DNA of 64,000 bases from positions 434,001 to 498,000 of the forward strand of contig NZ_CAKLCM010000002.1 of assembly GCF_921292975.1 (NCBI RefSeq), in the 5' to 3' direction. Under the pieces are notes generated by a model that was not told where the DNA came from, ran no database searches, and saw nothing but the letters and a program-made list of their open reading frames with translations. Origin of the DNA: Vibrio hippocampi (GTDB taxonomy: Bacteria; Pseudomonadota; Gammaproteobacteria; Enterobacterales; Vibrionaceae). How positions within the stretch are numbered: position 1 is the first letter of the stretch; each line of letters starts with the position of its first letter. The position numbers and the translations under genes are program-made. Below are positions 6,513 to 24,499 of this stretch, in pieces.

Positions 6513-8867
6513 TTACAATATGACTAGTTGAACACTGCCTATTGAGAATTGCATGCCTTGCAATGTATCGTCAGCCCCAACCCATTCAGGAAGAATTGAA
6601 ACCGCGGTTTCAATGTTCTTTAAGGCATTGATGTCAATGCTTCCATCTTCATTCGTGAAGAGCTCACGTAGAGGAACTTGAATCTGTTGCCAGCCCAAAC
6701 CAACGTCTAGAAAGTAAGGTTGCGAGTTACCAAACTCTTTGGATTCCATTTGAATTTGAAAACGTTGAGTTGGGTGAGAGCCGTAACTGTCGACGTTGAA
6801 CATAAACTGCAATACTCCGGAGTCTATGTAGTTGGACAGGTCACGGGTACTGTCATCGGTTGTTTTTAAAACTAACCCCCCGTTTTCACCTGCTGGTGCA
6901 TTGTCATATTCAATACGAATGTGATCTCCTCCCCAATGAAGTGTTGAACCTCCTCCTGTCATCCAGTTGGTAATACCCGTAGCCCAACCTTGTACGCCAC
7001 TAGAAACAAAGAATACTTTAGATGCAGAGTATGAATCATTTGGATCATCTCCAGGAAGTGGCGTGCTCGTGTCATCACACTCAAGTACGTTGTTTTGATC
7101 GAGCGAACTCCCTATGACGCGAGCGTTGCTAAATTCAAAATTGAGATTGGTTGAAGATTCCAATGCTAAGGGAGTAATTGTATTCGCAAAATCCATACCT
7201 TCGTCAGAGAAACACGAAAGAGGAACCTTGATGGTTTGTGTTCCCTGATTGTAGTTCGCAAGCAATGAACTGGTTATAGAAACTTTCCCTATATCGACAC
7301 CGATTTCATTTTGAGTCGTGATGTAGATTTCTTGGTCTAATGCCGGTTTACTAATTGCGTTGGTATCAAACTGGAGCGTTGCACTTGATGGGTCAACATC
7401 CAAGTTAATATGACTTGAATCGCTACTTCGCAGCAATATTCGACCTTGTTTATCGTCTGAAATGTTGACGTTAAGAGTGCCTCTTAGCGCACCTAGTGGA
7501 TTCTGAGTTTGGATATTGCCCTGTATCATATTTCCACTTTCATCAACGGTCGCTTCCACACCATCACTATCCATGATGATGACATCAAAGCTTTGATCAT
7601 CACTAGGACTATATAGGTCTATCTCTTTCGTCGGATCGCTCATTGCAATTTGAATATCGCGAATAGAAAAATCTATCCCTTGTAGTGTGTCTGTAGATTC
7701 CACCCATTCAGGGAGAATAGACAGACCCTTATCGATGTTTTTAAGTACGTTAATGTTCACACTGCCATCATCGCGAGTGAAAAGCTCGCTTAAGGGAATC
7801 TTTATCTCCGTCCAGCGGTTCGACGCTGCACTTTCATCTAAGAGATAGGACAGAGAATTACCGAACTCACTCGATTCCATTTGTACTTGGAGACGCTTTG
7901 TTGGGTGTGACGCGTAGCTTGATACATTCAGTGAAAATTGAAGTATGCCTGTGTCGATGTAGTTTGAAATGTCTAGAGTGCTTCCGTCTGCTGTTGCGAA
8001 AACCAGTCCACCATTTTCGCCTGCAGGCGCATCAGTAAATTCAACACGAATGTAATCGCTTGCCCAATGAAGAGTCGATGTGCCAGTTGTCATCCAGTTT
8101 GTAATGCCTGTTGCCCAACCCTCTGTACCAGTGTCGCTTACCTTAAATAAGGTCGATACTTGGTAGCTATCGTTGAGGTCATCAGCTTCGACCATATCAC
8201 TGGTTGATTGGCATTCGAGTACATCATCTTCTTCGATTGAATTGGCAACGATTTGAATATTGCCAAGGGTAAAGTCGAGGCTGCTAGAAGATTCAAGTGC
8301 AAATGGGGCTACAGCTTGAGTGAAATCCATTCCTGCGCTTATAAAGCAAGACAGTGGGACCTTGACTGTTTGCGTTGCTCCGTTGTAGCTAGCCAAAAAA
8401 GTGCTGGTTAAGGGAACATTCCCAAGATCTTGTCCTATCTCTTTTTGGGTAGTCAAGTAGACTTCTTGACCATCAATAGGTTTGCTCTTCATTTGGCTGT
8501 CAAACTGCAAGGTAGCTTCTGATGTATCTATATCTAAAAAGACAGCCTCTTCGTCGTTACTCTCTAGTAGAATACGTCCATTTTCGTCGTTGGTGATTGT
8601 GACATCGAGATCGCCACTAGTACTTTCCGACATACTTTGAGTGTGAATATTACCTTGGCTCACTGAGCCACTACTGTCTACGAACGCTTTTGTTCCTGAG
8701 CTGTCGATGACGGCCATTGAAAATGAACCATCATCACCTGAACCATAGAGCATAATCGAATCAACAGGTTGTTTCGGCTCTTCGTAGGGATCATCTAGGC
8801 ATCCTGCTAGCGTTAAAGTGCAGAGAGATGCAATAAGTGTTTTCTTACTAAATTTAAACTGTTCCAT
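6513..8867 (-). CDS. Surface lipoprotein with tandem ExoP-C-like beta-sandwich modules, candidate glycan-binding protein
   Basis: This 784-residue protein starts with a lipoprotein signal (LCTLTLAGC, Cys23) followed by an acidic DDPYEEPKQ linker. The rest is an internal duplication: residues about 36-408 and 412-784 align along their length. Each half has an N-terminal part with GRILL, a TLQFD segment and a VPLSCF...GMDF...PFALESS stretch, which recalls the ExoP C-terminal galactose-binding-like domain of GH3 exo-glucanases. The second part of each half has GWATGITNWMT, a DAPAGENGGLV motif and a WVxxxDTLQGxxFSI end. There is no catalytic domain, so a binding role at the outer membrane is inferred. 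It is divergent from the glucanase operon with an operator palindrome before its start, so it is probably co-regulated by the locus LacI protein. Confidence 0.7.
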   Translation of the reverse strand: MEQFKFSKKTLIASLCTLTLAGCLDDPYEEPKQPVDSIMLYGSGDDGSFSMAVIDSSGTKAFVDSSGSVSQGNIHTQSMSESTSGDLDVTITNDENGRILLESNDEEAVFLDIDTSEATLQFDSQMKSKPIDGQEVYLTTQKEIGQDLGNVPLTSTFLASYNGATQTVKVPLSCFISAGMDFTQAVAPFALESSSSLDFTLGNIQIVANSIEEDDVLECQSTSDMVEADDLNDSYQVSTLFKVSDTGTEGWATGITNWMTTGTSTLHWASDYIRVEFTDAPAGENGGLVFATADGSTLDISNYIDTGILQFSLNVSSYASHPTKRLQVQMESSEFGNSLSYLLDESAASNRWTEIKIPLSELFTRDDGSVNINVLKNIDKGLSILPEWVESTDTLQGIDFSIRDIQIAMSDPTKEIDLYSPSDDQSFDVIIMDSDGVEATVDESGNMIQGNIQTQNPLGALRGTLNVNISDDKQGRILLRSSDSSHINLDVDPSSATLQFDTNAISKPALDQEIYITTQNEIGVDIGKVSITSSLLANYNQGTQTIKVPLSCFSDEGMDFANTITPLALESSTNLNFEFSNARVIGSSLDQNNVLECDDTSTPLPGDDPNDSYSASKVFFVSSGVQGWATGITNWMTGGGSTLHWGGDHIRIEYDNAPAGENGGLVLKTTDDSTRDLSNYIDSGVLQFMFNVDSYGSHPTQRFQIQMESKEFGNSQPYFLDVGLGWQQIQVPLRELFTNEDGSIDINALKNIETAVSILPEWVGADDTLQGMQFSIGSVQLVIL

Positions 8868-8916: not shown

Positions 8917-8928
8917 TTAAACGTTTAA
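8917..8928. promoter_or_regulatory. LacI-type operator palindrome upstream of the surface lipoprotein gene
   Basis: TTAAACGTTTAA is a perfect 12-bp palindrome with the central CG typical of LacI/GalR operators. It lies 50 bases upstream of the lipoprotein start on the minus strand. The same core recurs at 9206-9217, 13177-13189 and, degenerate, at 17824-17836. Confidence 0.65.
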
Positions 8929-9139
8929 TCAAAACTGAGCATGATGTTTAAATGATAAACAGGCAAGGAAAAATATAAAGTCAATGTGATTTTTGTGAAT
9001 CTCGGCATAAATGGGCTTGGAATGTTAAATTTTATTGGTGTGATTTTGAATTAACTCAGTTAAATGTGCTTTTGTTTTTGCATAACTTTTTGATTTTATT
9101 GGTTTTGTTTGAATTTGTGTTTTATGGAAAGAAAAATAA

Positions 9140-9205: not shown

Positions 9206-9217
9206 ATAAACGTTTAA
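9206..9217. promoter_or_regulatory. LacI-type operator upstream of the first glucanase gene
   Basis: TATAAACGTTTAA shares the AAACGTTT core (9208-9215) with the other sites and lies about 35 bases before the gene start at 9251. An additional outer pair GCTTGAT (9193-9199) and ATCAAGC (9217-9223) surrounds it but is not concentric. Confidence 0.6.
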
Positions 9218-9250
9218 TCAAGCCCCTTTTAATTTTATGATTTGGAATTG

Positions 9251-10594
9251 ATGATGAATAATAAGAAATATGCTTTTGCTACCGCATTGATAGGTTTCAG
9301 TGCGAGCGCCTTTGCCAATGACATTGTTTTAAATGAACTGACGATTAGAGATCATTTGTACCCTGATAACTTTAAGTCTGAACTCAACAACAATCTGAAC
9401 TTTTTCCGCGATGGTGTAGGTGTGGACCCAGTTTCTAAAGTCCCTTTTGACACCGTCTCTATTGTTGATGGTGAAGTTGTCCCTTTTTACTATGTAAACA
9501 CCACCGAGATCGGTTTGTATCTCAACATTTTGGTTGAGGTGGAAAAAGCGGGTAATGCCGATGCACTGACAAGAATTGCCGAAGTGCTTGATGTTCTAGA
9601 AGAAACACCAACCTGGAAAGGGCTGTACTTTTGGCCATACGACATTGTTGATGGAAAACTGCAGCCAACCATAGAAGGTATTGTACCGGCTGTTGATAAT
9701 GCCAATTTAGCATTTTCGCTTGTTGGGGTAGCGGGTGCATATCTTGATTCAACCTCGCCAGAGAAACAAGCTATTGTCGCAAGAATAGAAACCATCCTAG
9801 AAGGGCAAATTGATGGTTGGATTTCTATTTATGACAAAAACCGAGGTCTGTTGAATGCGGGTTGGAGCACTAAAGACGATGCGGCATTACCCTACTTTAT
9901 TGACAGAAAAGCAAATGAAAGCCGTTTGGCTCCGCTATGGGCTGCACTAATTACTCGTGATCAAGGTGCAAACGCAATACCGACTAGTGCCTTCGATGAT
10001 ATGGAGCTATATACGCACTCATATACTTTCAATGGTAAAGAATACAATCCAATGCTGACTTGGAATGGTACTTACTTCCAAGGCATGTTGCCTTCTATTT
10101 GGATGAATGAAAGAGAACTCATGCCTGACTACAGCTTGGTTGAAGACATGACGTTTGCTCAGATGGTCTATGCGGCGAAGCACAATATACCTTTACTTTC
10201 ATCATCGGCAACCGTTGATGATGGGTACTCTGAATTTGGTGTTCCTTATCTTTCAGAGAGTACCGTTATGTTTAACAATGAGATGCCTCCTGGAGATACA
10301 GGAACGCCTCATGCGACGGCACTATCTTATATTGTTAGTCCTGAAACATCGATACAAGCTCTAAAAGCGCTGAAAGCTTACTACCCAAATATTGAAAGCG
10401 AATTTGGTTGGTATGACGCTGTTAATACTGAAGGTCGCATGTCGACCAAAATACTTTCTCTCGATCAGGGCATGTTTGTTGGGGCGTTTGTTGCTGGCGA
10501 GATCAATGCCGATGTGCAAACTTACTTGGAAGCACGTGGCTACATGGATGATGTAAGAGACATGTATCGCAGCTTTGTTCCGAATAACCAGTAA
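9251..10594 (+). CDS. Secreted endo-beta-1,2-glucanase-like protein (GH144-related fold), paralogue 1
   Basis: ATG 9251 (or 9254) gives about 447 residues with a Sec signal peptide cut near SASAFA-ND. The body matches, by motif order, the alpha/alpha-barrel of the glucoamylase-like/GH144 group: a DNANLAFSLVGVAGAYLD helix, RKANESRLAPLWAA (compare ASEARLA), LTWNGTYFQGMLPSIWM, DDGYSEFGVPYLSES, GTPHATALSYIVSPE and the C-terminal EFGWYDAVN...LSLDQGMFVGAF. Those enzymes cut beta-1,2-glucan internally. The protein is about 40 percent alike by eye to the lipoprotein at 11711-13087. The GH94 1,2-beta-oligoglucan phosphorylase and GH3 enzyme in the same locus support a beta-1,2-glucan substrate. Similarity to GH144 itself looks distant, so it may belong to one of the newer related families or to none yet defined. 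Confidence 0.65.
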   Translation: MMNNKKYAFATALIGFSASAFANDIVLNELTIRDHLYPDNFKSELNNNLNFFRDGVGVDPVSKVPFDTVSIVDGEVVPFYYVNTTEIGLYLNILVEVEKAGNADALTRIAEVLDVLEETPTWKGLYFWPYDIVDGKLQPTIEGIVPAVDNANLAFSLVGVAGAYLDSTSPEKQAIVARIETILEGQIDGWISIYDKNRGLLNAGWSTKDDAALPYFIDRKANESRLAPLWAALITRDQGANAIPTSAFDDMELYTHSYTFNGKEYNPMLTWNGTYFQGMLPSIWMNERELMPDYSLVEDMTFAQMVYAAKHNIPLLSSSATVDDGYSEFGVPYLSESTVMFNNEMPPGDTGTPHATALSYIVSPETSIQALKALKAYYPNIESEFGWYDAVNTEGRMSTKILSLDQGMFVGAFVAGEINADVQTYLEARGYMDDVRDMYRSFVPNNQ

Positions 10595-10611: not shown

Positions 10612-11655
10612 ATGAATAAATTCTCTACGGCATTATGGGTCAGCCTAGCTTTATTCTCTACAAATGCGCTCAGTAGTGATGAAACGAAGGCAAAGGTATG
10701 GGATGACATCTCTTTACCGGGATACGGCAGCGTTAAAGCTAAGCCGGGAATGTGGGATGGTATTGAACTACCGGGTCACGGATTAGTGGCTGGTGAGCAA
10801 CTAGAACTTCCGAAACTCGATGAATCTTTGCGAGATATTGGTGGCTTTGGTGAGGTACTTATGGCTTCAGATTCGGGTGGAGCGACTCCCAAACGAACAC
10901 GTATGCTGACCGGGTATGAGTACGAAGAATACGTCTATAAGAATGCGCCAAGCCAGCTTTTTCAGACGTTTATTTTTGCTGATGGTTCAACCAAAATCAG
11001 TGAGCACTTTCGACTTGCCTACGTAATCAAGGAGACGCATCGATACCGAGGAAAAGATAAAGTATCAGAGGGTAACGCGTTACTCACCACTGAGTTTATG
11101 CCTCGTTATGAAAAGTGGGTGAATGAGCATTTCAATTACGCCATCGAGCTAGGCTATGAAAAAGTGTCTGGCTTCCTAGAGAGTAGTCGGTACCAGATCA
11201 CACCAGAACTAAATTTTTCATATGGAAAGCACTTTTTGCACCTCAACCTAGAATCTGGTTACTGGGATGAAGAAAAGTCGATGTTTTATGAAACAGAGCC
11301 TTTGTATGTATATCGCTTTAATGACTGGATCAATGTAGGCGGTAAGTTTTTGTATCATGAGGATAAAACGGATTTTGCTTGGACAGAAATCGCTATAAAA
11401 CCGTTAGTTCAGTTCCGCTTTGATAACAATGTGTACCTTGAGCTTCGTTATGAAAAAGGCGAAACGGAAATCTATGATGGGACGGGCTACGATTACAACA
11501 ATTATGCTTTGTACTCAGAAATCCCCATCAACTCAAGTATGAGTCTATTAGCGGATCTCGCTTATCGAGACCACAAGCAGAGAAACGGTAATGAATACAC
11601 TTGGGGTGATAAAGAAGGTGTGTTTGCCAAAGTTGGCATCATTTGGAACTTCTAA
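10612..11655 (+). CDS. Outer-membrane oligosaccharide porin (OmpG/KdgM-like)
   Basis: This 347-residue protein has a signal peptide (cut near NALSS-DE), an N-terminal extension of about 80 residues and a C-terminal beta-barrel of about 245 residues with alternating aromatic strands, ending in WNF, the terminal aromatic expected for BAM-dependent insertion. The barrel size fits 12-14 strands, as in KdgM or OmpG monomeric porins that pass oligosaccharides. The extension contains a short internal repeat: VWDDISLPGYGSV and MWDGIELPGHGLV. The gene lies 17 bases after the first glucanase-like gene and before the second, so it probably admits beta-1,2-gluco-oligosaccharides to the periplasm. The locus has no TonB-dependent receptor, so this is the only outer-membrane entry route seen. 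Confidence 0.75.
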   Translation: MNKFSTALWVSLALFSTNALSSDETKAKVWDDISLPGYGSVKAKPGMWDGIELPGHGLVAGEQLELPKLDESLRDIGGFGEVLMASDSGGATPKRTRMLTGYEYEEYVYKNAPSQLFQTFIFADGSTKISEHFRLAYVIKETHRYRGKDKVSEGNALLTTEFMPRYEKWVNEHFNYAIELGYEKVSGFLESSRYQITPELNFSYGKHFLHLNLESGYWDEEKSMFYETEPLYVYRFNDWINVGGKFLYHEDKTDFAWTEIAIKPLVQFRFDNNVYLELRYEKGETEIYDGTGYDYNNYALYSEIPINSSMSLLADLAYRDHKQRNGNEYTWGDKEGVFAKVGIIWNF

Positions 11656-11710: not shown

Positions 11711-13087
11711 ATGAATTTTAAACTCTTATCTCTTATCACCTTATCGGCTGCTATCTTGACAGGGTGCAATAGTGGTGGAGGTAGCAATAATGATGACTCG
11801 ACACCCCCAACTGTCCCTGAAGAAGATGTGATCACTCAAATTAGAATCGAATCGAAATACTATCCCACGGGGTTTGAACAGTCGTTGCAAGACAATATGG
11901 ATTACTTTATCGATGGTGTTGGGGTTTCAACTTCTGCCCATATTCCTTTTGATCATGTTTTGGTCAATGATGGTGAGATAACCCCTTCGACTTACACCAA
12001 TATATCGACGATTGCCTTGTATATAAATGTACTGATTCAAATGGTTGAGTTTGGTGATGAGGCTGCTATTACTCGTTTAAGTACCGTACTAAGTACATTA
12101 GAAAACGCCCCAAAATGGAATGGTCTTTTTTACTGGCTATATCAGATAGAGGGGGACGCTCTAACCATTGATGATAGTGCCATCGCATCGGCGGTAGACA
12201 ATGGCATCATGTCTTTTACCTTAGCGGGTCTATACGGTGCGCTCAACAACCATACTGATGAACGCTTGAACCAACTGTCTCTTAGAGCTGAAGCTTTATT
12301 GAATGAACAAGTTACAGGTTGGTCAGTGCTATATGACCCTATCCAAGGTTATCTAAGGGCTGGGTGGGACAAAAATGCCTTTGCGTACCTTCCTTATTAT
12401 TTGGATCGCAAAGCTAATGAAAGCCGGTTAGCCACACTCTGGGCAGTCATGGTGACGAATGGCCAAGTTCCGAGCACCGCTTTTACCGATATGACATTGG
12501 TGAGAGGAGAGGTCTCAAATGCGGGACTCAGTGTCACGCCGATGCTCACTTGGGATGGCTCGTATTTCCAAGCGACTTTACCAGCACTATGGCTTGATGA
12601 GTCGTCATTGATGCCCAGTTATGAAATGGTAGAAGAGTTTACTCAAGTACATCTTCAATATGCCGATGAACACAACATCCCCTTTGTCTCAGCCTCTTCA
12701 ACTATAGATGATGGGTATGCAGCATTTGGACTCGAATCGGTTTCTGAGAGCCATAGAAAATACAGCAACTCAATTGAAACAGGTACCACTGGCACTCCCC
12801 ATGCTTTGGCTCTGTATTATATGCTTTCACCTACCGATGCAATACAACGTTTAAACCAATTGATACTGACTTATCCTCAAATTGAAACGTCGGCTGGTTG
12901 GGCTGATGCTATAGACAGTTCAGGTCAAGTATCAAGTAAAGTGATTGGCTTAGATCAAGGGATGTTTGTGGGAGCATTCTTCGCAGATTCAGTGCGTGAG
13001 CATGTTGCTGCATACATTGATTTTAAAGGGCAAACATCAACATTACAGACCCTTTACTCCACTTTTGTCGCCGATGAAATATTGTAA
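11711..13087 (+). CDS. Endo-beta-1,2-glucanase-like lipoprotein, paralogue 2
   Basis: This 458-residue protein is the lipid-anchored counterpart of 9251-10594. Its signal ends in AAILTGC with lipidated Cys19, followed by a low-complexity NSGGGSNNDDSTPPT linker. The catalytic-type body repeats the same motif series: AVDNGIMSFTLAGLYGALN, DRKANESRLATLWAVM, LTWDGSYFQATLPALWL, DDGYAAFGLESVSES, GTPHALALYYMLSP and the final LDQGMFVGAFFADSV. A surface or periplasmic-face outer-membrane location is expected, giving division of labour with the soluble paralogue. The start ATG at 11711 follows GTGAGG. The acid/base and nucleophile residues cannot be named from sequence alone; conserved carboxylates shared by both paralogues (for example in ANESRLA and DDGY) are candidates. 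Confidence 0.65.
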   Translation: MNFKLLSLITLSAAILTGCNSGGGSNNDDSTPPTVPEEDVITQIRIESKYYPTGFEQSLQDNMDYFIDGVGVSTSAHIPFDHVLVNDGEITPSTYTNISTIALYINVLIQMVEFGDEAAITRLSTVLSTLENAPKWNGLFYWLYQIEGDALTIDDSAIASAVDNGIMSFTLAGLYGALNNHTDERLNQLSLRAEALLNEQVTGWSVLYDPIQGYLRAGWDKNAFAYLPYYLDRKANESRLATLWAVMVTNGQVPSTAFTDMTLVRGEVSNAGLSVTPMLTWDGSYFQATLPALWLDESSLMPSYEMVEEFTQVHLQYADEHNIPFVSASSTIDDGYAAFGLESVSESHRKYSNSIETGTTGTPHALALYYMLSPTDAIQRLNQLILTYPQIETSAGWADAIDSSGQVSSKVIGLDQGMFVGAFFADSVREHVAAYIDFKGQTSTLQTLYSTFVADEIL

Positions 13088-13176: not shown

Positions 13177-13189
13177 TTGAAACGTTTAA
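13177..13189. promoter_or_regulatory. LacI-type operator upstream of the ABC ATPase gene
   Basis: TTGAAACGTTTAA, centre CG at 13183-13184, 30 bases before the ATPase start. It suggests a separate regulated promoter for the ATPase-phosphorylase unit. Confidence 0.6.
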
Positions 13190-13218
13190 CCCTCGCTTGA
13201 GATAGGAAGTTATAGCCC

Positions 13219-14334
13219 ATGGCAAAGGTCACTCTAGAAGGCATTAACAAGGTTTACGACAATGGCTATCATGCGATTCATGATGTCAGCTTAGACATTA
13301 AAGATGGTGAGTTTATGGTACTCGTTGGTCCATCTGGTTGTGCCAAATCAACAATGCTAAGAATGGTTGCAGGTCTTGAAAGTATTACAAGCGGTCAACT
13401 ATTTATTGGTGATAAGGTGTGCAATGATTTGCCTCCGAAAGACCGTGGAATCGCAATGGTTTTCCAAAATTATGCGCTTTACCCGCATATGACCACCTAT
13501 GAGAATATGGCCTTTGGCTTAGAAACGGCAAAGAAATCGAAGCAAGAAATCGAACGACGAGTATCAGAAGCCGCCGAGCTATTAGAGATCACTGAGTTGC
13601 TTAACAGCAAACCCAACCAAATGTCGGGTGGGCAATGTCAGCGTGTGGCTTTAGGTCGGGCAATGGTAAGGAAGCCAGAGGTTTTTCTATTTGATGAACC
13701 GCTTTCAAATCTTGATGCCAAATTACGTGTTTCTATGCGTATGCGAATTACTCGCCTACATAAACAGCTTCAAGAGTCTGGCAGCCCTGCGACTATGGTT
13801 TATGTTACCCATGATCAAGTGGAAGCCATGACAATGGGAGACAGGGTGTGCATCTTGAATAAAGGGCATATCATGCAAGTGGATACACCAATGAATGTGT
13901 ACCACAATCCTAAAAATCGCTTTGTCGCTGAGTTTATCGGCTCGCCAGCAATGAACATGTTCGCTGGAAAAGTGAGTAAGTCTGAAGGCACCGTTGGCGT
14001 TGATTTCGGAGGGAAAGTTATTGAATTACCTCAAGAGCGTCATGCCCGTGCGGAGTTATGGGCTGATAAGAAGGTTCACGTAGGTATTCGTCCAGAACAT
14101 ATCGCTGTTCGATTAGAGAAAAGCCCTGCAACCTTGTCTGCGGAAGTAGAGGCTATCGAGGAGCTTGGTTCTGAAGTTTACGTCCACCTAAACGTTCTAG
14201 GGTGTCAGGTTATTTGCAAGCAGTCAGATCGTGAGCAGGTTCCTGCTGTCGGCTCTCGCTGCCATATCGAATTATTCATGGGTAATTGCCATCTGTTCGA
14301 TGATTCAACTGAAAAAAACATTTTCTATTCTTAA
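13219..14334 (+). CDS. MalK/UgpC-type sugar ABC transporter ATP-binding protein
   Basis: This 371-residue protein is the cytoplasmic ATPase for sugar import. The N-terminal nucleotide-binding domain has Walker A GPSGCAKST (37-45), the Q-loop in VFQNYALYPHM, signature SGGQCQRVALGRA (from 136), Walker B FLFDE (156-160) and the H-loop in YVTHDQVEAM. The C-terminal regulatory OB-fold (about 240-371) has the family HVGIRPEHI segment. Two residues depart from consensus: Ala42 replaces the last Walker A glycine and Cys140 replaces the usual Arg of SGGQRQR. It is separated from its permeases by the phosphorylase and lacI genes, but no other ATPase is present in the locus, so it likely energises the importer at 18875-21846. 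Confidence 0.9.
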   Translation: MAKVTLEGINKVYDNGYHAIHDVSLDIKDGEFMVLVGPSGCAKSTMLRMVAGLESITSGQLFIGDKVCNDLPPKDRGIAMVFQNYALYPHMTTYENMAFGLETAKKSKQEIERRVSEAAELLEITELLNSKPNQMSGGQCQRVALGRAMVRKPEVFLFDEPLSNLDAKLRVSMRMRITRLHKQLQESGSPATMVYVTHDQVEAMTMGDRVCILNKGHIMQVDTPMNVYHNPKNRFVAEFIGSPAMNMFAGKVSKSEGTVGVDFGGKVIELPQERHARAELWADKKVHVGIRPEHIAVRLEKSPATLSAEVEAIEELGSEVYVHLNVLGCQVICKQSDREQVPAVGSRCHIELFMGNCHLFDDSTEKNIFYS

Positions 14335-17300: not shown

Positions 17301-17735
17301 TATTTCTCAAGCTCTGATGCGAAATTCAATGACCGTTATTCTGCTTACGATAACTTCGACAAAGTTAAAGCAGGCGAAGTCTCGGTGAAAGGAGGCTGGC
17401 GTATTTACTCTAGCGGTCCTGGCATTTACTTAAATCAACTGATCAGCAATGTGTTTGGCTTGCGATTCGAACGTGGAAACTTAGTGCTCGATCCGATTGT
17501 TTCGTCGCGACTCGGTACCGTTTCAATGGACTATGAAGTTGAAGGTAAAGCCGTAAAAGTGGTCATTGAATCAATAGAGGGTCAATACACACCTAAAACC
17601 ATTCAACTGAATGGGGTAGATGTTCCTTTTGAGCTCCAATCGAATCGCTATCGTACGGGTGGCGCGGTGATTGAATCTAACTACCTGAAAAACAAGCTTA
17701 ATGATTCAGGTAATATTCTGAAAGTAACACTATAG
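14361..17735 (+). CDS. GH94 1,2-beta-oligoglucan phosphorylase (sophoro-oligosaccharide phosphorylase)
   Basis: At 1124 residues with no signal peptide, this is a cytoplasmic GH94-type phosphorylase. The length fits the 1,2-beta-oligoglucan phosphorylase branch (about 1100 residues; Listeria innocua enzyme), which is longer than cellobiose phosphorylase (about 800). The GH94-type motif GDGDWDDTLQP lies at residues 759-769, with the general acid among its aspartates. The (alpha/alpha)6 barrel region runs from about 590 (WFTHNALVHYSTPHGLEQYS) to about 980, with GAAWGTRDVSQGP and WPQWFMFDQY. The enzyme splits beta-1,2-glucans with phosphate into glucose-1-phosphate and a shortened oligomer. It follows the ATPase by 26 bases and starts after GGAG. 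A perfect operator-like palindrome lies inside the gene at 14581. Substrate assignment rests on length, motifs and the neighbouring GH3 and ABC genes. Confidence 0.85.
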   Translation: MHQFINEPTLIVGDKKLNMTFSPTGVLSAIRSEKLMVSLFDTPLNELSISNIYLRTFDQDIISATPLLFFNEEIETFKQKGGSLAWKTTTDKYEALVSLRIVDSAFFYDVTVSNIGSHDLSFDLVYGQDLGLADEGAVKTNEAYCSQYLDHQIHQLDDYGFTVCSRQNLPQSAGNPRIQIGSFSPVIGFSTDGYQFFGQEYKVTGEAMALKKHELANEKYQYEMGYIALQTESVTLAPNNDSVQTFYGVVESHCEESNLKQHIDISSIQSIYARGEHAVDCDNALPYKPQGKAPYIKGENLTEHELSELFGTERRFSESKDGELLSFFYGDSQYVTLAAKEQHMERTTGHVIATGNNTDYQDSIMSATHHIFGVFNSQLTLGNTSFNKLLGVCRNPLNHFSNGGQRIWIKEGNTYQALGMPSAYEVGTNYSRWIYKYLNGFIDVRSFAASATPNIQLEIEIRGLDTALDIAVSHQLVFGNNESDSVISVAQGEDGLTIKGRNELIEKFSPELSFSLLPSLELSEWDIISNPETGSVDYLVLKGLVHDKARITFGGELAGINSKGQCIEFNEETEKCESQRLKLTKGFKLHFEHDEINSQRLNETVHWFTHNALVHYSTPHGLEQYSGAAWGTRDVSQGPFELFMSMQEYGKARDLLKEIYSHQYQETGTWPQWFMFDQYAQIQQEDAHGDIIVWPLKALGEYLAVTSDFSLLDEMLPYTLAKEEFAKSDDHYSLFSHVERQIQHIIDNLVPGTSLSCYGDGDWDDTLQPANQSLRENMVSGWTIPLTLQALKGMARVLKDVTKFNHFSDELTKLATDMEQDYHHYLIKDEVIAGFIHFARDGQGEVEEVEYLLHPSDKNTGIKYRLLPASRSIISETFTPEMAHEHMTMIKEHLVHPDGVRLMDRMAEYKAGKQTYFKRAELAANLGREVGLQYCHAHIRFIEALCKLGDAEAVFDNLYKIIPVGIQDIVPNAEIRQSNAYFSSSDAKFNDRYSAYDNFDKVKAGEVSVKGGWRIYSSGPGIYLNQLISNVFGLRFERGNLVLDPIVSSRLGTVSMDYEVEGKAVKVVIESIEGQYTPKTIQLNGVDVPFELQSNRYRTGGAVIESNYLKNKLNDSGNILKVTL
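14581..14593. promoter_or_regulatory. Intragenic operator-like palindrome in the phosphorylase gene
   Basis: TTGAAACGTTTAA is identical over 13 bases to the operator at 13177-13189 but lies about 220 bases inside the phosphorylase coding region (codons for IETFK). A second AAACGTTT is at 15091-15098. LacI-family proteins can loop between or block at such sites; function is inferred. Confidence 0.45.
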
Positions 17736-17740
17736 CCGAA

Positions 17741-17769
17741 GATGTTAACCCGGTAACCGGGTTAACATC
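17741..17769. terminator. Perfect hairpin after the phosphorylase gene
   Basis: GATGTTAACCCGGT (17741-17754) and ACCGGGTTAACATC (17756-17769) are perfect complements around a single base. It begins 6 bases after the stop codon. No T-run follows, so it may act as a 3' stabilising stem or a factor-assisted terminator. Confidence 0.6.
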
Positions 17770-17879: not shown

Positions 17880-18866
17880 ATGGCAGTGACAATTAAAGAT
17901 GTAGCAAAGAAAGCAAATGTGTCGATCGCAACGGTATCTTATTCAATAAACGGAAGCCCACGAATTAGTGATGCGACCCGAGAGCATGTATTGAAAATTG
18001 CATCTGAGCTTAATTATGTTGCAAACAATAATGCAAAGCAGCTTAAACAGAAAAAGAGCAATGCGATTGGCCTATTTTTTAACTCGTGGTTTGGACCGAT
18101 CTACAGTGAGTTAGTAAAAGGTATAGAACAAGTTTGTCACCAAAACGGGTACGATCTTGTTGCTTGCAGCGTGTATGGCAATGAAGGTTCTACGGCACAC
18201 AAGTATATCCGAGATCGAATGGTTGACGGAGCGATTATCTTGACTAACTCATTTGATGATGAATTTCTCAAGTCGATAGCGAAGAAAGACTTCCCTGTTG
18301 TTGTGCTAGATAGGGAGGTTTCTGGTCCAAATATCTACAACATTCTTATAGATAACTTTGGTGGTGCGTTCTCAGCAACAAAAGCACTGATTAACTCAGG
18401 ATGTGAAGAGATCTATTACTTTGGAGGTCCTGAAGATTCTTATGATGCTCAGAAGCGCCTTGATGGTTATATCTCAGCGCTGGGCTATTACAAAATCAAC
18501 GTGGATCACTCACTGTTGATCGAATGTGATTTCACCGAGCGATCTGCGTATACCAAAATGCAGGAGCTTATTGAATTAGGTAAACAACCGAAAGCGGTGT
18601 TCGCTTCGAACGATGAAATGGCAATTGGTATTATTCGAGCGGCGAAGGAAAAAGATATCGCAATCCCAGAAGATATGAAACTGGTTGGGTTTGACGATAT
18701 ACAGATGGCAGAACTCATGATTCCAAGACTCTCCACTATCTCCCATCAAAAAATGGGCATGGGTGAGATAGCAGCAAAGACACTGGTCGATGCAATGAAC
18801 AGTAAAGATGATATGGAAGACTTGAGAATTCTACCAACAAAATTAATTTTAAGGGAAACTTTGTAG
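17880..18866 (+). CDS. LacI-family transcriptional regulator of the glucan locus
   Basis: This 328-residue protein has the LacI/GalR layout: N-terminal helix-turn-helix (TIKDVAKKANVSIATVSYSI, residues 4-23), hinge helix near residues 46-60, and a periplasmic-binding-protein-like sensor core with SNDEMAIGIIRAAKEKDI and the VGFDDIQMAELMIPRLSTI segment. It probably represses the locus until an imported sophoro-oligosaccharide binds. Repeated TTRAAACGTTTAA palindromes with a central CG at the promoters match the operator geometry of this family. The gene heads the transporter operon, 8 bases before the solute-binding protein gene. Confidence 0.9.
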   Translation: MAVTIKDVAKKANVSIATVSYSINGSPRISDATREHVLKIASELNYVANNNAKQLKQKKSNAIGLFFNSWFGPIYSELVKGIEQVCHQNGYDLVACSVYGNEGSTAHKYIRDRMVDGAIILTNSFDDEFLKSIAKKDFPVVVLDREVSGPNIYNILIDNFGGAFSATKALINSGCEEIYYFGGPEDSYDAQKRLDGYISALGYYKINVDHSLLIECDFTERSAYTKMQELIELGKQPKAVFASNDEMAIGIIRAAKEKDIAIPEDMKLVGFDDIQMAELMIPRLSTISHQKMGMGEIAAKTLVDAMNSKDDMEDLRILPTKLILRETL

Positions 18867-18874: not shown

Positions 18875-20122
18875 ATGAAAAAATGGTTAATTGGGTGTGT
18901 GCTTGCTCTAAGTTGTCAGACAGTTACGTTTGCCGCAACTAAGCTAGAAGTCATGACTCCTGCTGGCAACTATATGAATTTTGTTCGTAGTGTCGTTGTA
19001 CCTGAGTTTAATAAGCAATATCCCGATGTTGAAGTTGTCGTTTCAAACGATGAGAATTTAGAAACTCGAATGGCGGCAGGGGATTTACCGAATTTATATG
19101 CGGGCGTGTTTGGCTATCAACCTGCCAAGTATGCAAAAATGGGTAAGCTTGCATATCTTGAACAATTTGATGGATATCAGGAGCTTATAGACAGAATCGA
19201 TCCTGTTTTTCTCCGTAAAAATTTTGGTCGTAGTTACTACATCCCATGGAGTGCGACGACTCAATTAATGATATATAACAAAGAATTATTTATTGAGGCT
19301 GGGCTGGATCCAGATCAGCCCCCACAAACTTGGGAAGAGTTTTTATCCGCAGCAGAGAAAATTAATCAACTGCCACCTCGTGCTGATGGAAGCCCAGTAT
19401 ACGGGACCGTTTTTTGGAATGATGTCTTGTCATCAGGAAGCTGGTATTGGGGTATGTTAGCGCAGCTATATTACAACTTTAACGAGGGGGAATTTACACT
19501 ACTTAATCGCTTTGGAACTCATCCTATTTTCGATAAAGATGAGGCCAATATGACAGAGTTCTTAGAGACGATGCAGCAAGCACAAAAGTTTGCTCCATTG
19601 ACGATGGAAAAGAGCTTCTTCTCTCGTAATATTGGCATGTGGCCACAGTTTGGCTTTGGTTGGAAAGCAAATTTACAAGAGGCTGCACTACGACCAATGG
19701 TTGTGGGAGAAGACGTTGGCCTAGCACCGATACCAACCTTAAATAAAGGCGATACTTCTTATTCAACCCTTGATGGTCGTGCACTGATGATATTCAAGAA
19801 TACGATTGAAGTAGAGAAATTGAGTTGGGCGTTTGTGCAATTGCTCATGGATGATGAACTCAATCATCTTGCTAACGTTGAACTTGGACAGTTGCCAGTA
19901 TTAACCGAATTACAAGGCAGACCTTACTACCAAAGTAAGGAAGCAAAACCATTTGTCGACCAACTTCCCCACACTATTATGAGTGAGCCTTTTTCACAGT
20001 CGGCTGATGTCGCAACCATATTACTGCAACAGTATTCTAGGGTTGTTCTAAAAAATGAAATAACTGCCGAAGTTGCCGTTGAATCAGCGAGTAATCAAGC
20101 AAAGAAAATATTCTCTCATTAA
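18875..20122 (+). CDS. Sugar ABC transporter solute-binding protein
   Basis: This 415-residue protein has a signal peptide (LIGCVLALSCQTVTFA-AT) and the family 1 extracellular solute-binding fold: KLEVMTPAGNYMNF at the start, YIPWSATTQLMIYNKELF for the hinge strand and GLDPDQPPQTWEEF typical of sugar-binding members. The signal has cysteines, but the one at 16 is not in a lipobox, so a soluble periplasmic form is likely. It precedes two MalF/MalG-type permeases. In Listeria innocua a binding protein in the same type of cluster binds sophoro-oligosaccharides of several units; the same ligand is inferred here. Confidence 0.88.
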   Translation: MKKWLIGCVLALSCQTVTFAATKLEVMTPAGNYMNFVRSVVVPEFNKQYPDVEVVVSNDENLETRMAAGDLPNLYAGVFGYQPAKYAKMGKLAYLEQFDGYQELIDRIDPVFLRKNFGRSYYIPWSATTQLMIYNKELFIEAGLDPDQPPQTWEEFLSAAEKINQLPPRADGSPVYGTVFWNDVLSSGSWYWGMLAQLYYNFNEGEFTLLNRFGTHPIFDKDEANMTEFLETMQQAQKFAPLTMEKSFFSRNIGMWPQFGFGWKANLQEAALRPMVVGEDVGLAPIPTLNKGDTSYSTLDGRALMIFKNTIEVEKLSWAFVQLLMDDELNHLANVELGQLPVLTELQGRPYYQSKEAKPFVDQLPHTIMSEPFSQSADVATILLQQYSRVVLKNEITAEVAVESASNQAKKIFSH

Positions 20123-20146: not shown

Positions 20147-21022
20147 ATGAAAAAGAACAATCTCATTATGGGGTATATTTTCCTTGCGCCTTGGATAATA
20201 TATTTCACTGTTTTTTTAATGTACCCATTTTTCTTGTCATTTGAAAGTAGCTTTCTAGAGACAAATATTCTACTTCCTGAGAATACGCGGTTTGTTGGAT
20301 TGGCAAACTGGCTATCTGTTGTAACTGACGTCATGTTTTGGAAGTCGTTGTTTAATGTTCTTTTTAATCAAGTGATATTCGTTTTTCTAAGCTTCTTAAT
20401 TGGACTTGGTCTTGCTTTGCTGTTAAATGAAATTAAGTTTATGGCAAGTTTCTTTAGAACGATAATGTTTATTCCTGTCATAACATCTATAACTGTTGCT
20501 ATGGTTATCTTCGATTTTATTTCAGGTCCATCAGGACCAATACAAAGCTCGATGATCAACGCCAATGTTATATCTGAACCTGTTTTCTGGAAGTTTGAAG
20601 AGTGGCTCCCAATGCCTGTAATTGCTGTATTCAGTGCATGGAAATGGTTTGGCGTTCAGATGATCATATTTTTAGGTGGTATCGCGAGTATTAATCGTTC
20701 TCTGTTTGAAGCCGCTGATATCGATGGTGCTTCTTGGTGGAGAAAGACACGGAAAATCACTCTACCTATGATTATGCCTCAGATTGTATTTGTTATGACG
20801 ATGAATATTATCAACGGATTACAGATGTTTATTGAAGTCTTTATGAACTTTGATCTAAGTGGTGGACCTTATCAATCTGCGTTGACCCCAGTTTTATATC
20901 TGTATCAAGTTGGTTTCGAAAAAATGCAAATGGGCGAGGCTTCAACCATAGGATTAATGCTTGCTGCTGTTATTTATCTACTCACGATGATGCAATTAAA
21001 AATCACAAGTAAGGATAACTAA
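20147..21022 (+). CDS. Sugar ABC transporter permease, MalF/UgpA type
   Basis: This 291-residue inner-membrane protein has about six membrane segments beginning with IMGYIFLAPWIIYFTVFLMY. The EAA loop that contacts the ATPase is EAADIDGASWWRKTRKITLP (near residue 190), the standard motif for importers of this class. It starts 24 bases after the binding-protein gene and ends 2 bases before the second permease, so the three are co-transcribed. The partner ATPase is probably the gene at 13219. The reading gives no substrate by itself; context points to beta-1,2-gluco-oligosaccharides. Confidence 0.9.
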   Translation: MKKNNLIMGYIFLAPWIIYFTVFLMYPFFLSFESSFLETNILLPENTRFVGLANWLSVVTDVMFWKSLFNVLFNQVIFVFLSFLIGLGLALLLNEIKFMASFFRTIMFIPVITSITVAMVIFDFISGPSGPIQSSMINANVISEPVFWKFEEWLPMPVIAVFSAWKWFGVQMIIFLGGIASINRSLFEAADIDGASWWRKTRKITLPMIMPQIVFVMTMNIINGLQMFIEVFMNFDLSGGPYQSALTPVLYLYQVGFEKMQMGEASTIGLMLAAVIYLLTMMQLKITSKDN

Positions 21023-21024: not shown

Positions 21025-21846
21025 ATGAATAAGAATAAAAATACGATGTTACTCGTTTACGTAACATTAATTGTCGCTTCAATCGTGGTGCTATACCCTT
21101 TCTTTTTTATGTTAATTAACTCATTTAAAACTGGGCCTGAGATCATGCACTCACCTAATAGTCTACCGACAGAGTGGTCATTTAGAGGGTATGTAGAAGT
21201 TTTTGGATCGATAAACTTAGGTCGAGTTTTCTTTAATACGATATTTATTTCTATATCAGTCACGTTTTTGAATGTGTTATTTTCTTCAATGGTCGCATAT
21301 GCCATTGTTAAAACGAACCTACCAGGAAGAGAATTCTGGTTAAAAGTGATTCTAGGGTCCATGATGATCCCTGCTGTATTATTTACCATCCCCACATATA
21401 TGATGATGTATGAGTGGGATTGGATAAATACGTACCGAGTGCTTATTATTCCAGGATCTATCAGCGCTTATAATATATTTCTTCTTGTTCAGTTCATGAA
21501 ACAAATCGATAACGCCTATTTAGAAGCGGCTCGAATTGACGGTGCTAATGAAATTCGTATTTTTAGAAAGATAGTTCTACCTATGTTAAGACCAGCTTTA
21601 GCAACGGTTGGTATCCTAACGTTCATGGGAGCTTGGAATGATTTTATGGGACCACTTTTATATGTCAGAGATGAGTCGCTAATGACACTACAGTTGGCTC
21701 TCTATAATTTCCAAACTGAAGTGCCAGGTACTAATTTAGAGCAGTTGTGGGCGATGACGACCATGATTGCTGTACCTGTGGTTATCGTGTTCTTCTGTTT
21801 ACAGAAAAACTTTATTAAAGCGTTTACCGGTGTTGGGGTGAAGTGA
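21025..21846 (+). CDS. Sugar ABC transporter permease, MalG/UgpE type
   Basis: This 273-residue inner-membrane protein has about six membrane segments, starting with MLLVYVTLIVASIVVLYPFF. Its EAA loop reads EAARIDGANEIRIFRKIVLP (near residue 172). The C-terminal end KAFTGVGVK resembles the GLTAGAVKG tail of MalG-type subunits, which inserts toward the ATPase. The stop overlaps the start of the next gene by one base (TGATG), so translation is coupled. It forms a heterodimer with the upstream permease. Confidence 0.9.
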   Translation: MNKNKNTMLLVYVTLIVASIVVLYPFFFMLINSFKTGPEIMHSPNSLPTEWSFRGYVEVFGSINLGRVFFNTIFISISVTFLNVLFSSMVAYAIVKTNLPGREFWLKVILGSMMIPAVLFTIPTYMMMYEWDWINTYRVLIIPGSISAYNIFLLVQFMKQIDNAYLEAARIDGANEIRIFRKIVLPMLRPALATVGILTFMGAWNDFMGPLLYVRDESLMTLQLALYNFQTEVPGTNLEQLWAMTTMIAVPVVIVFFCLQKNFIKAFTGVGVK

Positions 21847-22331
21847 TGAGCAGTGGAATAAAACTCGGGCTCTTTGCCCTTTTGGTGGCGATCGCGTACG
21901 GTTCTGCATGGCTAAAAACATATCAACTTTCTGAACAATATAATACTTACGCTCACCAACAGCTTGAAGAGCGAGACTTGGTCATTGCTTTGAAAGGGAT
22001 GAACAAACTCGAGTTGCGTCAAGGTGACCTATATTTTGGCGGCTTTCAGCAAGTGCTTGAAACTTGGGAAAACTCAGTGCTTGGACCTAAGCCGTCTTTT
22101 TACGACGACGCTAAAGTTATGCCTGAAAAAATCTTGGCTAAGTTAAATCAGCAACAGCTTGAAATGTTCATTGAAACTTATGTTGAATTGGACGCGCGTT
22201 ATGTACCTGAAGCGGCAGAACGATTGCGAGTACTTGCATTACAAAATGGCGATACTGAAATGGCTGATGAAATGAGTGAGTTTTTAATCGAAGCGTTTCC
22301 TAACTATAAACTTAAGTCAGTTTCGGAGTGA
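21846..22331 (+). CDS. Small membrane-anchored protein of unknown function in the glucan transport operon
   Basis: I recognise no family. ATG 21846 overlaps the permease stop by one base; a GTG three bases upstream is an alternative. The 161-residue product has one N-terminal hydrophobic segment (LGLFALLVAIAYGSAWL, residues 7-23) and a soluble, mostly helical, acidic remainder with heptad-like stretches (LEERDLVIALKGMNKLELRQ; EAAERLRVLALQNGDTEMAD). The topology suggests an inner-membrane anchor with a periplasmic helical domain. Its tight coupling between the permease and the GH3 gene implies a role with the importer, perhaps assembly or substrate hand-over, but that is only inference. Confidence 0.7.
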   Translation: MSSGIKLGLFALLVAIAYGSAWLKTYQLSEQYNTYAHQQLEERDLVIALKGMNKLELRQGDLYFGGFQQVLETWENSVLGPKPSFYDDAKVMPEKILAKLNQQQLEMFIETYVELDARYVPEAAERLRVLALQNGDTEMADEMSEFLIEAFPNYKLKSVSE

Positions 22332-22336
22332 CAATC

Positions 22337-24499
22337 ATGGACAAATATAAAGATTCGTCACTTTCTATTGATACCCGTACGGAAGACTTGCTGTCACGCA
22401 TGACGTTAGTCGAAAAAATGGGTCAGTTATGTCAATCACCAATGCTCGATTATGATTCCCATAAAGCGGATTACTTGAGTAAAGTTCGCGATGGAAAGTG
22501 GGGTTCACGAATTTTGGCAGACACCGCATGGGCAGGTAATGCACCTGGGGAGTCGGTTGACCCAAATCAGCTCAATGAAATTCAAAAAGTAGCGGTAGAA
22601 GAAAGCCGATTAGGCATTCCGATTATTTTTGCTCGAGATGTTATTTATGGACAAAAAACGGTGCTACCGATTCCGCTAGCCCAAGCCTGTTCTTGGAACC
22701 CGTCATTAGTTGAGGAAGCATATCGTGGTATTGCGGCAGAAGCGGCCTCACTAGGCATCAATTGGACCTTTGCCCCGATGCTCGATATTGTGCGCGACCC
22801 TCGCTGGGGACGCGTAATAGAAAGCAATGGTGAAGACCCTCATTTAACCAGTCAAATGGCTAAAGCGGTCGTGCGCGGTTTCCAAGGCGACGACTTAACT
22901 CAACCAGAAAATATTTTGGCCTGTGCTAAGCATTTTGTTGGCTATGGCGCTTCTGAAGGAGGTCGAGACTACGATACAACTGAAATCTCAGAGAACAGTT
23001 TACATAATGTGTATCTCCCCCCCTTTAAGGCAGCGATTGATGCTGATGTTGGTTCATTGATGACTGGATTCAATGATCTTGGTGGCACACCCGTCACAAG
23101 CTCTAAACCATTGGTCCGTGACTGGCTTAAAGGGCAGCAAGGCTTTGATGGCTTGGTGGTAAGTGATTGGGGCTCAATATCTGATCTTGAGTATTTCGGT
23201 GTTGCGCGTGATAGTGTGCATGCTTCCATGCTGGCACTTGAAGCGGGCGTCGATATGGCCATGCCAGACGAAGCCTATGAAGCGAATTTATCGAGAGCGA
23301 TCGAAATGAATCCTTCGCTTATGACATATCTGAATGAAGCGGTGAGCAGAGTGCTTCGAGCTAAATTCCGAATTGGTTTGTTTGAGAACCCGTGTATTGA
23401 TCCAATGCGTCACTTGAGTGTGCTTGGCAAACCCGAGCATGCGAGCAAAGCACTAGCCCTTGCTGAACAAAGCTTGGTGTTGTTAAAAAATGAAAACCAA
23501 ACTTTGCCCTTGATTGATTCAGGCTTAACCATTGCGGTTATTGGTCCGCATGCGGAATCACAGAGACAGCATCTTGGCTCATGGTGTTTGGATGGCAGCA
23601 GTGAAGATGTGGTTTCTATTGCTGACGGACTCAAGGCTTATTCGCAGCAAAATATCACACTGACTGACAGTTCTGCGTTCAGTGACGATATGGTTGAATG
23701 CGCGCATCGTGCTGATGTGGTCGTGTTGTGTATTGGAGAAAGCCATAGAAGAACGGGTGAGGCGCGCAATGTGGCTGAATTGGCATTGCCAGCTGGTCAA
23801 GAGCAACTTATATCAGCGATAGGGCAAACGGGGAAACCGCTAATTGTGGTTCAATGTACAGGGCGTCCGATTCCGTCTCCTGCGATAGAGCAATACGCAG
23901 ATGCACTTGTCTATGCATGGCAAAGCGGTACTCAAACGGGGAACGCGGTTGCGCGAATTCTCTATGGTCTGTCTAATCCATCTGGCAAACTTTCGATGAC
24001 GGTCCCTCGTACTACAGGGCAGGTCCCGATCTACTACGCACGTAAAGAACTCGGAAAAATGCGCGCGTATCAAGATTATCAGCCTTATAAGGATTGCCAA
24101 GATACACCACTGTATCCGTTCGGTTTTGGATTGAGCTATAGCCGTTTTTCATATCGTGATCTGCAATCACGTAAACCTAAAGTCTCTATCGGAGAGGAAG
24201 TCCATGTTTCCGTTGAAGTGACAAATGATTCTGAGATTGATGGGAGTGAAGTGATTCAATGCTATATCTCACAGAAAGGGACTTCAACCACTTGCCCTCG
24301 TAGAGAGCTAAAGGCGTTTAAAAAAGTAGATTTAAAGGCTTTTGAAAGCAAAACGATTGAATTTGTTTTAACCAAAAACGAATTCGCTTTCTATGGCAAG
24401 AAAGTAACGATTGAGCAAGAGCCTGCAAAGGTCACTATCTTTGTCGGTGGTGATTCGAACGCTAGCTTGCAAGTATCCATTGATGTACTTAGCGGATAG
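22337..24499 (+). CDS. Cytoplasmic GH3 beta-glucosidase
   Basis: ATG 22337, with CGGAG 8 bases upstream, gives 720 residues without a signal peptide. The GH3 N-terminal barrel carries IDWTFAP-like NWTFAPMLDIVRDPRWGR, AKHFVGYGASEGGRDY and the nucleophile motif LVVSDWGS with Asp277. The C-terminal alpha/beta sandwich (SLVLLKNENQTLPL, VIGPHAESQR) and the fibronectin III-like tail (YPFGFGLSYSRFSY onwards) complete the three-domain form. Length and lack of signal match the Listeria innocua GH3 enzyme that sits beside a 1,2-beta-oligoglucan phosphorylase and acts on sophorose. Here it likely hydrolyses sophorose and short oligomers left by the phosphorylase. Confidence 0.9.
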   Translation: MDKYKDSSLSIDTRTEDLLSRMTLVEKMGQLCQSPMLDYDSHKADYLSKVRDGKWGSRILADTAWAGNAPGESVDPNQLNEIQKVAVEESRLGIPIIFARDVIYGQKTVLPIPLAQACSWNPSLVEEAYRGIAAEAASLGINWTFAPMLDIVRDPRWGRVIESNGEDPHLTSQMAKAVVRGFQGDDLTQPENILACAKHFVGYGASEGGRDYDTTEISENSLHNVYLPPFKAAIDADVGSLMTGFNDLGGTPVTSSKPLVRDWLKGQQGFDGLVVSDWGSISDLEYFGVARDSVHASMLALEAGVDMAMPDEAYEANLSRAIEMNPSLMTYLNEAVSRVLRAKFRIGLFENPCIDPMRHLSVLGKPEHASKALALAEQSLVLLKNENQTLPLIDSGLTIAVIGPHAESQRQHLGSWCLDGSSEDVVSIADGLKAYSQQNITLTDSSAFSDDMVECAHRADVVVLCIGESHRRTGEARNVAELALPAGQEQLISAIGQTGKPLIVVQCTGRPIPSPAIEQYADALVYAWQSGTQTGNAVARILYGLSNPSGKLSMTVPRTTGQVPIYYARKELGKMRAYQDYQPYKDCQDTPLYPFGFGLSYSRFSYRDLQSRKPKVSIGEEVHVSVEVTNDSEIDGSEVIQCYISQKGTSTTCPRRELKAFKKVDLKAFESKTIEFVLTKNEFAFYGKKVTIEQEPAKVTIFVGGDSNASLQVSIDVLSG

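Follow-up and report, generated by a model that had tools for sequence, protein, structure and literature searches.

Does a gene block of Vibrio hippocampi encode a route by which a Gram-negative bacterium feeds on external beta-1,2-glucan and, if so, whose glucan would it be? The block lies in the window analysed here, a stretch of 64,000 nucleotides (positions 434,001-498,000 of contig NZ_CAKLCM010000002.1, assembly GCF_921292975.1) on contig 2 of a 4.59 Mb genome in five contigs; coordinates of the locus are window positions. Its 12 genes lie within bases 6513-24499, and those named in a first-pass annotation of this DNA are all present at the coordinates given there (Table 1). Very probably they form a catabolic locus, under LacI control, for the use of external beta-1,2-glucan, a reading supported here by the family membership of the enzymes, the conservation of their catalytic residues, operator-like sites, a conserved gene set, gene co-occurrence and the predicted fold of a porin. 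A Gram-negative beta-1,2-glucan utilisation locus was also what the first-pass annotation had proposed, and the presence of members of the 1,2-beta-oligoglucan phosphorylase (SOGP) and GH192 families with their catalytic residues kept, in a conserved gene set, argues for it.

Phosphorylase, glucosidase and glucanases

The gene at 14361-17735 is supported as a GH94 1,2-beta-oligoglucan phosphorylase. The earlier annotation had noticed a GH94 protein of suitable length, and the product of 1124 residues does carry four SOGP-type domains, SOGP_N, SOGP_2nd, Glyco_hydro_94 and SOGP_4th (Pfam; PF21958 239 bits, PF21250 182, PF17167 48, PF21270 38, all above cut-off). It matches LpSOGP (5h3z) with 740 bits across residues 11-1115, against partial matches of at most 34 bits to cellobiose phosphorylases. 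All of the 13 LpSOGP residues compared are kept, namely N138, Y141, Q621, R630, D631, W758, the catalytic D760, R907, R916, E917, Y922, Y1004 and S1005 (numbering of PMC5309861, the chain number being that of the paper plus 1; the comparison did not extend to H924 and to some residues in contact with water), and alignment to D760 gives D765 as the catalytic acid. Clustering with cellobiose or laminaribiose phosphorylases, named beforehand as the result that would overturn the proposal, is thus not what this tree-less comparison found. A second GH94 gene, on C3, was considered as a SOGP type and rejected, its 806-residue frame matching PF17167 over the full length with 423 bits.

The GH3 protein has Glyco_hydro_3 and Fn3-like domains, and no signal peptide was seen by eye in it or in SOGP, in keeping with the signal-less GH3 enzyme first described. 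The profile check suggested for these enzymes assigns them by Pfam to SOGP/GH94 and GH3; the specificity of the GH3 enzyme for sophorose is only partly supported. In Lin1840, a Listeria glucosidase that prefers sophorose, W271, R572 and Y583 hold the +1 glucose (PMC12369401); our protein matches it with 493 bits and keeps the nucleophile Asp and W271 (Asp-Trp pair). Mostly from its context and the absence of a signal peptide, it is a probable sophorose hydrolase.

The two secreted alpha/alpha-barrel proteins taken earlier for depolymerases, here called SGLa and SGLb, fit that role as members of GH192, a family with demonstrated beta-1,2-glucanases, and both are putative endo-beta-1,2-glucanases. 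Against EeSGL1 (8xuj, GH192), SGLa scores 575 bits (E 9e-172) and SGLb 389 bits (E 3e-115); the next solved chain for SGLa is 8wy1 of GH189 (3e-5), and SGLb has no other. The two proteins are 42% identical, and both keep the general acid E221 and the general-base candidate D149 of EeSGL1 (E223 and D149 in SGLa, E237 and D163 in SGLb). GH192 is represented by EeSGL1, PgSGL1 and PgSGL2, published in 2025, and the enzymes tested are active on beta-1,2-glucan with Sop3-7 as products (PMC12102758). Signal peptides and lipoboxes were assigned by eye throughout. SGLa has a Sec-type signal (AFA before ND), its start at 9251 being preferred over 9242, and SGLb an LTGC lipobox followed by N at +2. The +2 residue rule for lipoproteins would place SGLb in the outer membrane. 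SGLa is probably a soluble periplasmic protein and SGLb probably membrane-anchored.

Envelope proteins and importer

The lipoprotein at 6513-8867 has an LAGC lipobox with L at +2, Exop_C galactose-binding-like matches (2e-34, in two stretches) and a CBM30-like match (6e-8; Pfam), and its two halves are 55% identical. These features agree with the binding-type lipoprotein annotated before and point to a probable outer-membrane glucan-binding protein. The porin annotated beside it matches no Pfam or NCBIfam family, although its predicted structure is a 14-strand barrel, with block means of the predicted local distance difference test (pLDDT) of 89-96 from residue 101 on and a low-confidence N-terminal stretch through residue 91. 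The model lies closest to CymA and OmpG and superposes on them, CymA being the top structure; the protein has a Sec-type signal, and PF13557 is carried by 4 of 21 relatives. We regard it as a candidate beta-1,2-glucan porin, CymA/OmpG-like by its model. Neither a SusC/SusD pair nor a TonB-dependent receptor is found by Pfam among the 12 genes, as expected if a porin and two depolymerases stand in their place.

The LacI regulator and the complete sugar ATP-binding cassette (ABC) importer recognised at first are both present (Pfam LacI; SBP_bac_1, ABC_tran/OB_MalK and two BPD_transp_1 permeases). Missing from the earlier gene list was the gene at 21843-22331, which overlaps each neighbour by 4 bp and whose 162-residue product, sm162, matches no Pfam or NCBIfam family. 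It lies between permease 2 and the GH3 gene in 20/20 other SOGP loci of the genus. It appears to be an unannotated ABC-linked protein and would be an undescribed helper.

Operator-like sites

The shared operators described in the first-pass annotation were recovered by pattern scan. Six exact AAACGTTTAAYC sites occur in the genome, against none for the reversed-pattern control; three lie in promoters of the locus, at 8919 (lipoprotein), 9208 (SGLa) and 13180 (ATPase), and the remaining three inside open reading frames of unrelated genes. With one mismatch allowed, the window holds 7 sites where 0.92 are expected, a number reached in 0/100 shuffles. A LacI gene and palindromic sites at promoters, the marks of a LacI-type regulon, are thus both present in the sequence, and LacI would act on these three putative operators.

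The sites extend to relatives. All 12 full-length SGLa cases have a AAACGTTT-like site at most 160 bp upstream of the gene. The ATPase gene is preceded by such a site in 8 of 18 other loci; of the ten that lack it, nine (L053-L061) stand behind a co-directional glucanase or porin gene, and the tenth is that of L067. In 39 stretches, among which some genomes are represented twice, there are 136 AAACGTTT sites. Of these, 61 lie outside matched genes but at most 300 bp upstream of one, a fraction that makes up 4.3% of the bases, so that their density there is 18-fold. For eight control 8-mers with 4 to 37 sites each, the same fraction contained between 0 and 6 of them; AAAGCTTT came highest (6/37).

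Distribution among relatives

Among 227 genomes of the genus Vibrio, 50 had a SOGP hit, 29 of them short matches only; SOGP itself is present in 21, full-length in 20 (one with an internal stop) and decayed in G209. GH192 was found in 17 genomes, all SOGP-positive, and in 0/206 SOGP-negative ones (Fisher p 3.5e-22, uncorrected for relatedness). All SOGP loci of the genus other than the window's own were taken out, 20 in number, and compared by tblastn (at least 50 bits, within about 20 kb). An eight-gene core was matched in all 20 (one decayed), which supports the earlier view of the 18-kb block as a single unit; the porin was matched in 16 and SGLa in 14. The GH192 genes of G029 and G089 fall outside this range, at a greater distance. 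The nearest named loci are those of Vibrio breoganii (SGLa 91%, SOGP 92%) and V. maritimus (88%, 86%), and core, SGLa and porin also occur, rearranged, in Yersinia similis, two Proteus genomes and Photobacterium sp. DA100, where no annotated feature overlaps the stretch.

Several variants were seen in passing. In G209 (L068) the whole locus is present but decayed, with many stops in the SOGP, SGLa and SGLb matches. Vibrio sp. CAU 1672 has, on one contig (L005 and L014), a complete SOGP locus near a further lipoprotein-SGLa-porin-SGLb module, which a LacI gene follows. In Yersinia similis and Proteus, the gene after SGLa-porin (L004 12536-14821, L008 12475-14748) encodes 757-761 residues with an autotransporter domain. 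SOGP homologues are held by 136 plasmid records, 126 of them Rhizobium; among the Rhizobium matches listed, identity is about 34%, and four of the eight listed are annotated as cellobiose phosphorylase, a label that may be a misnomer.

Layout and surroundings

The divergent lipoprotein gene is followed by SGLa-porin-SGLb, ATPase-SOGP and LacI-binding protein-two permeases-sm162-GH3, with the widest intergenic gaps before SGLa (383 bp), the ATPase gene (131 bp) and LacI (144 bp). The inverted repeat between SOGP and LacI is a possible attenuator or terminator.

Table 1. Features of the locus (window positions) and, in the last three rows, genes of related stretches (positions within each stretch)
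Feature	Position	Strand	Basis
Tandem binding-type lipoprotein	6513..8867	-	Exop_C and CBM30-like matches, lipobox
SGLa, putative GH192 endo-beta-1,2-glucanase	9251..10594	+	8xuj match, catalytic residues, PMC12102758
POR, candidate beta-1,2-glucan porin	10612..11655	+	predicted 14-strand barrel
SGLb, putative second GH192 endo-beta-1,2-glucanase	11711..13087	+	8xuj match, catalytic residues, lipobox
MalK/UgpC-type ABC ATPase	13219..14334	+	ABC_tran/OB_MalK (Pfam); NF008653 above cut-off
SOGP, GH94 1,2-beta-oligoglucan phosphorylase	14361..17735	+	Pfam domains, LpSOGP match, PMC5309861
LacI-family regulator	17880..18866	+	Pfam LacI
Solute-binding protein of sugar ABC importer	18875..20122	+	Pfam SBP_bac_1
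ABC permease 1	20147..21022	+	Pfam BPD_transp_1
ABC permease 2	21025..21846	+	Pfam BPD_transp_1
sm162, membrane-anchored helical protein, 162 residues	21843..22331	+	no Pfam or NCBIfam family
GH3 beta-glucosidase	22328..24499	+	Pfam Glyco_hydro_3 and Fn3-like
Operator-like site AAACGTTTAATC, upstream of lipoprotein gene	8919..8930	+	genome pattern scan
Operator-like site AAACGTTTAATC, upstream of SGLa	9208..9219	+	genome pattern scan
Operator-like site AAACGTTTAACC, upstream of ATPase gene	13180..13191	+	genome pattern scan
Perfect 14-bp inverted repeat, between SOGP and LacI	17741..17769	+	weak T-tract
Sulfatase genes beside GH192, GH194-like or SOGP genes	L012 2439-9748; L013 4412-9805; L065 1338-7040; L066 16111-19307		
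Further such sulfatase genes	L072 84-3180 and 9427-11136; L006 989-2653 and 16787-18451		
Radical-SAM genes with AAACGTTT upstream, SOGP-locus genomes	L064 12248-13549 (SPASM domain); L065 1-1028; L074 2461-3759		

Elsewhere in the window, Alginate_lyase2 genes lie at 35425-37128 and 41110-42051, one of them also with F5/8 and ricin-B domains, and suggest a life on algae; between them, a gene at 39269-41002 (577 residues) has no Pfam match.

Sulfatase genes in relatives

None of the 12 genes of the window's locus is a sulfatase gene by Pfam, but sulfatase genes stand beside related genes in other genomes. In Photobacterium lutimaris and P. rosenbergii, the gene of a 440-residue protein is followed by a CQPSR sulfatase gene and a GH192 gene. 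The 440-residue protein has the length of PgSGL3 (GH194) and carries, at positions 148 and 214, the Asp and Glu that act as catalytic residues of PgSGL3, and is taken for a GH194 member from these two features rather than by direct alignment. The locus tags of PgSGL3 and PgSGL1, 1c0222 and 1c0224 (PMC12102758), fit the same gene order with one gene between. The L065 sulfatase (E at most 1e-150) has three copies in 2 of the 227 genomes, each beside GH194-like, SOGP-cluster or GH192 genes, and a CxPSR motif is present in the listed sulfatases of L006, L012, L013, L065 and L066, some of which are preceded by AAACGTTT.

The distance from this site to the gene downstream of it is 132-165 bp for four CQPSR-type sulfatase genes, 64-114 bp for all four GH194-like genes and 120-133 bp for three radical-SAM genes; counted within 300 bp, the site precedes 4/8 near-complete CQPSR-type, 4/4 GH194-like and 3/5 radical-SAM genes. 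Of the other CQPSR-type genes, two follow a GH194-like gene that has the site, one has a site at 417 bp and one lies at the edge of its stretch. Against a sulfatase link, the site is found within the same distance of 0/3 near-complete genes of the L012:2439 type, 1/4 of the L006:989 type (a count in which L077 repeats L006) and 1/2 of the L067:13249 type, and the L067 stretch has none at all; the two CGPSR sulfatase genes that flank the GH192 cluster of V. methylphosphonaticus likewise have no site near them. Since some genomes hold many sulfatase candidates (27 in G029 and 24 in G075 at a first look, 5 scored), proximity alone is weak evidence.

Discussion

From these gene products we infer the substrate, the cellular locations, the direction of flow, the binding and inducer of LacI and the role of sm162 as follows. 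Polymeric or cyclic glucan would be bound by the tandem lipoprotein and cut by SGLb at the outer membrane, and the oligosaccharides would enter through the CymA/OmpG-like porin. Periplasmic SGLa would trim them to a degree of polymerisation (DP) of about 3-7, and the binding protein and ABC importer, perhaps with the help of sm162, would carry them into the cytoplasm. There, phosphorolysis by SOGP would yield alpha-glucose 1-phosphate and sophorose, which the GH3 enzyme would hydrolyse to glucose. A sugar inducer would free the three operators from LacI.

Several results weigh against such a pathway or parts of it. SGLb and the lipoprotein were each matched in only 6 of the 20 other loci, so the surface step is not universal, and four genomes with SOGP have no GH192 match (G036, G075, G076, G030). 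The best solved chain for the binding protein, 5ci5, reaches only 59 bits, and none of its 53 matches is named Lin1841, the sophorooligosaccharide-binding protein of Listeria. Our GH3 protein matches three further GH3 sequences of the PDB with higher scores than it does Lin1840; against the BglX model it reaches 600, short of the cut-off of 666, and it has Lys at the position of R572, while Y583 falls in a 5-residue gap where the alignment is ambiguous, so that two of the three +1-site residues are not clearly kept. Finally, the OpgG family (PF04349) is absent from this genome but OpgH was not searched for, so some own glucan synthesis may still take place.

If the cell did make such glucans, the locus could recycle its own osmoregulated periplasmic glucans, and SGLa and the importer would, judging from their signals, act in the periplasm. 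The porin and the binding lipoprotein point outwards, however, and besides the lack of OpgG there is no PF10091 match in this genome other than SGLa, SGLb falling just under the cut-off (26.1 against 27 bits). OpgG occurs in 7 of the 227 genomes, none of which has SOGP, a distribution that is not significant by itself (p = 1). Own-glucan recycling was rejected on the OpgG results and seems to us very improbable; an own cyclic-glucan synthase was likewise rejected, with SGLa as the sole PF10091 match. Because neither an OpgG family gene nor a further PF10091 match is present, the food of the locus is probably external glucan. Feeding on the glucans of other bacteria, suggested in the first-pass annotation, fits these absences, which is a fit and not a proof.

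A locus for another beta-glucan, such as laminarin or cello-oligosaccharides, with the beta-1,2 labels reflecting family drift, is just as hard to credit. The GH3 protein is BglX-like, Lin1840 is comparably fast on laminaribiose (PMC12369401), and the window holds the two genes with alginate-lyase domains; yet SOGP and GH192, independent families specific for beta-1,2 linkages, co-occur with their active-site residues kept, and GH192 enzymes were inactive on 12 other polysaccharides (PMC12102758 Table 1, where starch gave <0.3% with PgSGL2 and xylan was tested with PgSGL2 alone). Possible, if rather doubtful, is that the substrate is the cyclic beta-1,2-glucan (DP around 20) of other bacteria, imported whole via the porin and opened by SGLa in the periplasm, instead of a linear glucan cleaved at the cell surface. 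The porin is closest in structure to CymA, a monomeric cyclodextrin channel (PMC5768706), and in many loci a single GH192 gene and the porin are retained, with no sign of SGLb or the lipoprotein. As a food source, cyclic glucan from other bacteria would readily suggest itself.

The external beta-1,2-glucan locus that we favour shares its cytoplasmic logic, SOGP with a GH3 enzyme and an ABC importer, with lin1839-lin1841 of Listeria innocua (PMC12369401), and adds outer-membrane and periplasmic parts (a porin, two GH192 proteins and a lipoprotein). The evidence supports a Gram-negative form of the Listeria-type SOGP pathway, one that works with a porin and an ABC importer and has two additional glucanases outside the cytoplasm. 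The ycj-ompG locus of Escherichia coli likewise combines phosphorylases, an ABC importer, a LacI-type repressor and the porin OmpG, but with kojibiose and keto-glucoside chemistry and no polymer-cutting enzyme listed (PMC11543891); our porin, having no Pfam match, has none to the OmpG family. GH144 systems of Bacteroidetes are another Gram-negative way of breaking down beta-1,2-glucan, and marine ones adjoin sulfatases (PMC6499787, PMC8072126); they use GH144 and SusCD, whereas the present locus has GH192, a porin, an ABC importer and no sulfatase.

The Vibrio chitoporin ChiP is a trimer with barrels of 16 strands, and our porin is modelled as one 14-strand barrel. Both would be substrate-specific oligosaccharide porins in Vibrio, as ChiP is (PMC5768706). 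The novelty that the first-pass annotation implied belongs to the arrangement and not to the enzymes: EeSGL1 of Endozoicomonas and PgSGL1 and PgSGL2 of Photobacterium gaetbulicola, the latter two also from Vibrionaceae, have the same family and catalytic residues and were already published in 2025, as single enzymes in a paper whose main text is without the words porin, ABC transporter or Vibrio (PMC12102758). No publication on this locus in Vibrio was found among the titles and abstract starts of the open-licence literature. The enzyme families are known; the porin family, the sm162 helper and the Gram-negative arrangement appear undescribed.

The sulfatase genes suggest a wider, tentative reading, which we hold to be reasonable but somewhat short of likely. 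A sulfated marine beta-1,2-glucan was proposed in 2019 from sulfatase-bearing GH144 loci of marine Bacteroidetes (PMC6499787), and Maribacter offers a case of a GH144 locus with a sulfatase (PMC8072126). There may be a Vibrionaceae beta-1,2-glucan regulon with a CymA-like porin family of its own, of which the present locus is one branch and whose other branches, with sulfatases, GH194-like and radical-SAM genes, share the operator, the sulfatases being of the formylglycine type and the radical-SAM proteins sulfatase-maturase-like, so that two bacterial groups would eat one sulfated marine beta-1,2-glucan. The present data would lend that glucan independent support, since sulfatases are linked to beta-1,2-glucan genes in a second phylum too, where the glucanase families differ and an operator-like site is shared. 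If this is true, unrelated groups with different enzymes and uptake would converge on one still unseen sulfated beta-1,2-glucan.

Beta-1,2-glucan is known chiefly for its roles in symbiosis and virulence and as an osmolyte, and its marine turnover is little studied. The locus of V. hippocampi would be a complete Gram-negative route for its use. With it come a candidate porin for this glucan and sm162, a conserved protein that lacks annotation and appears to be linked to an ABC importer.

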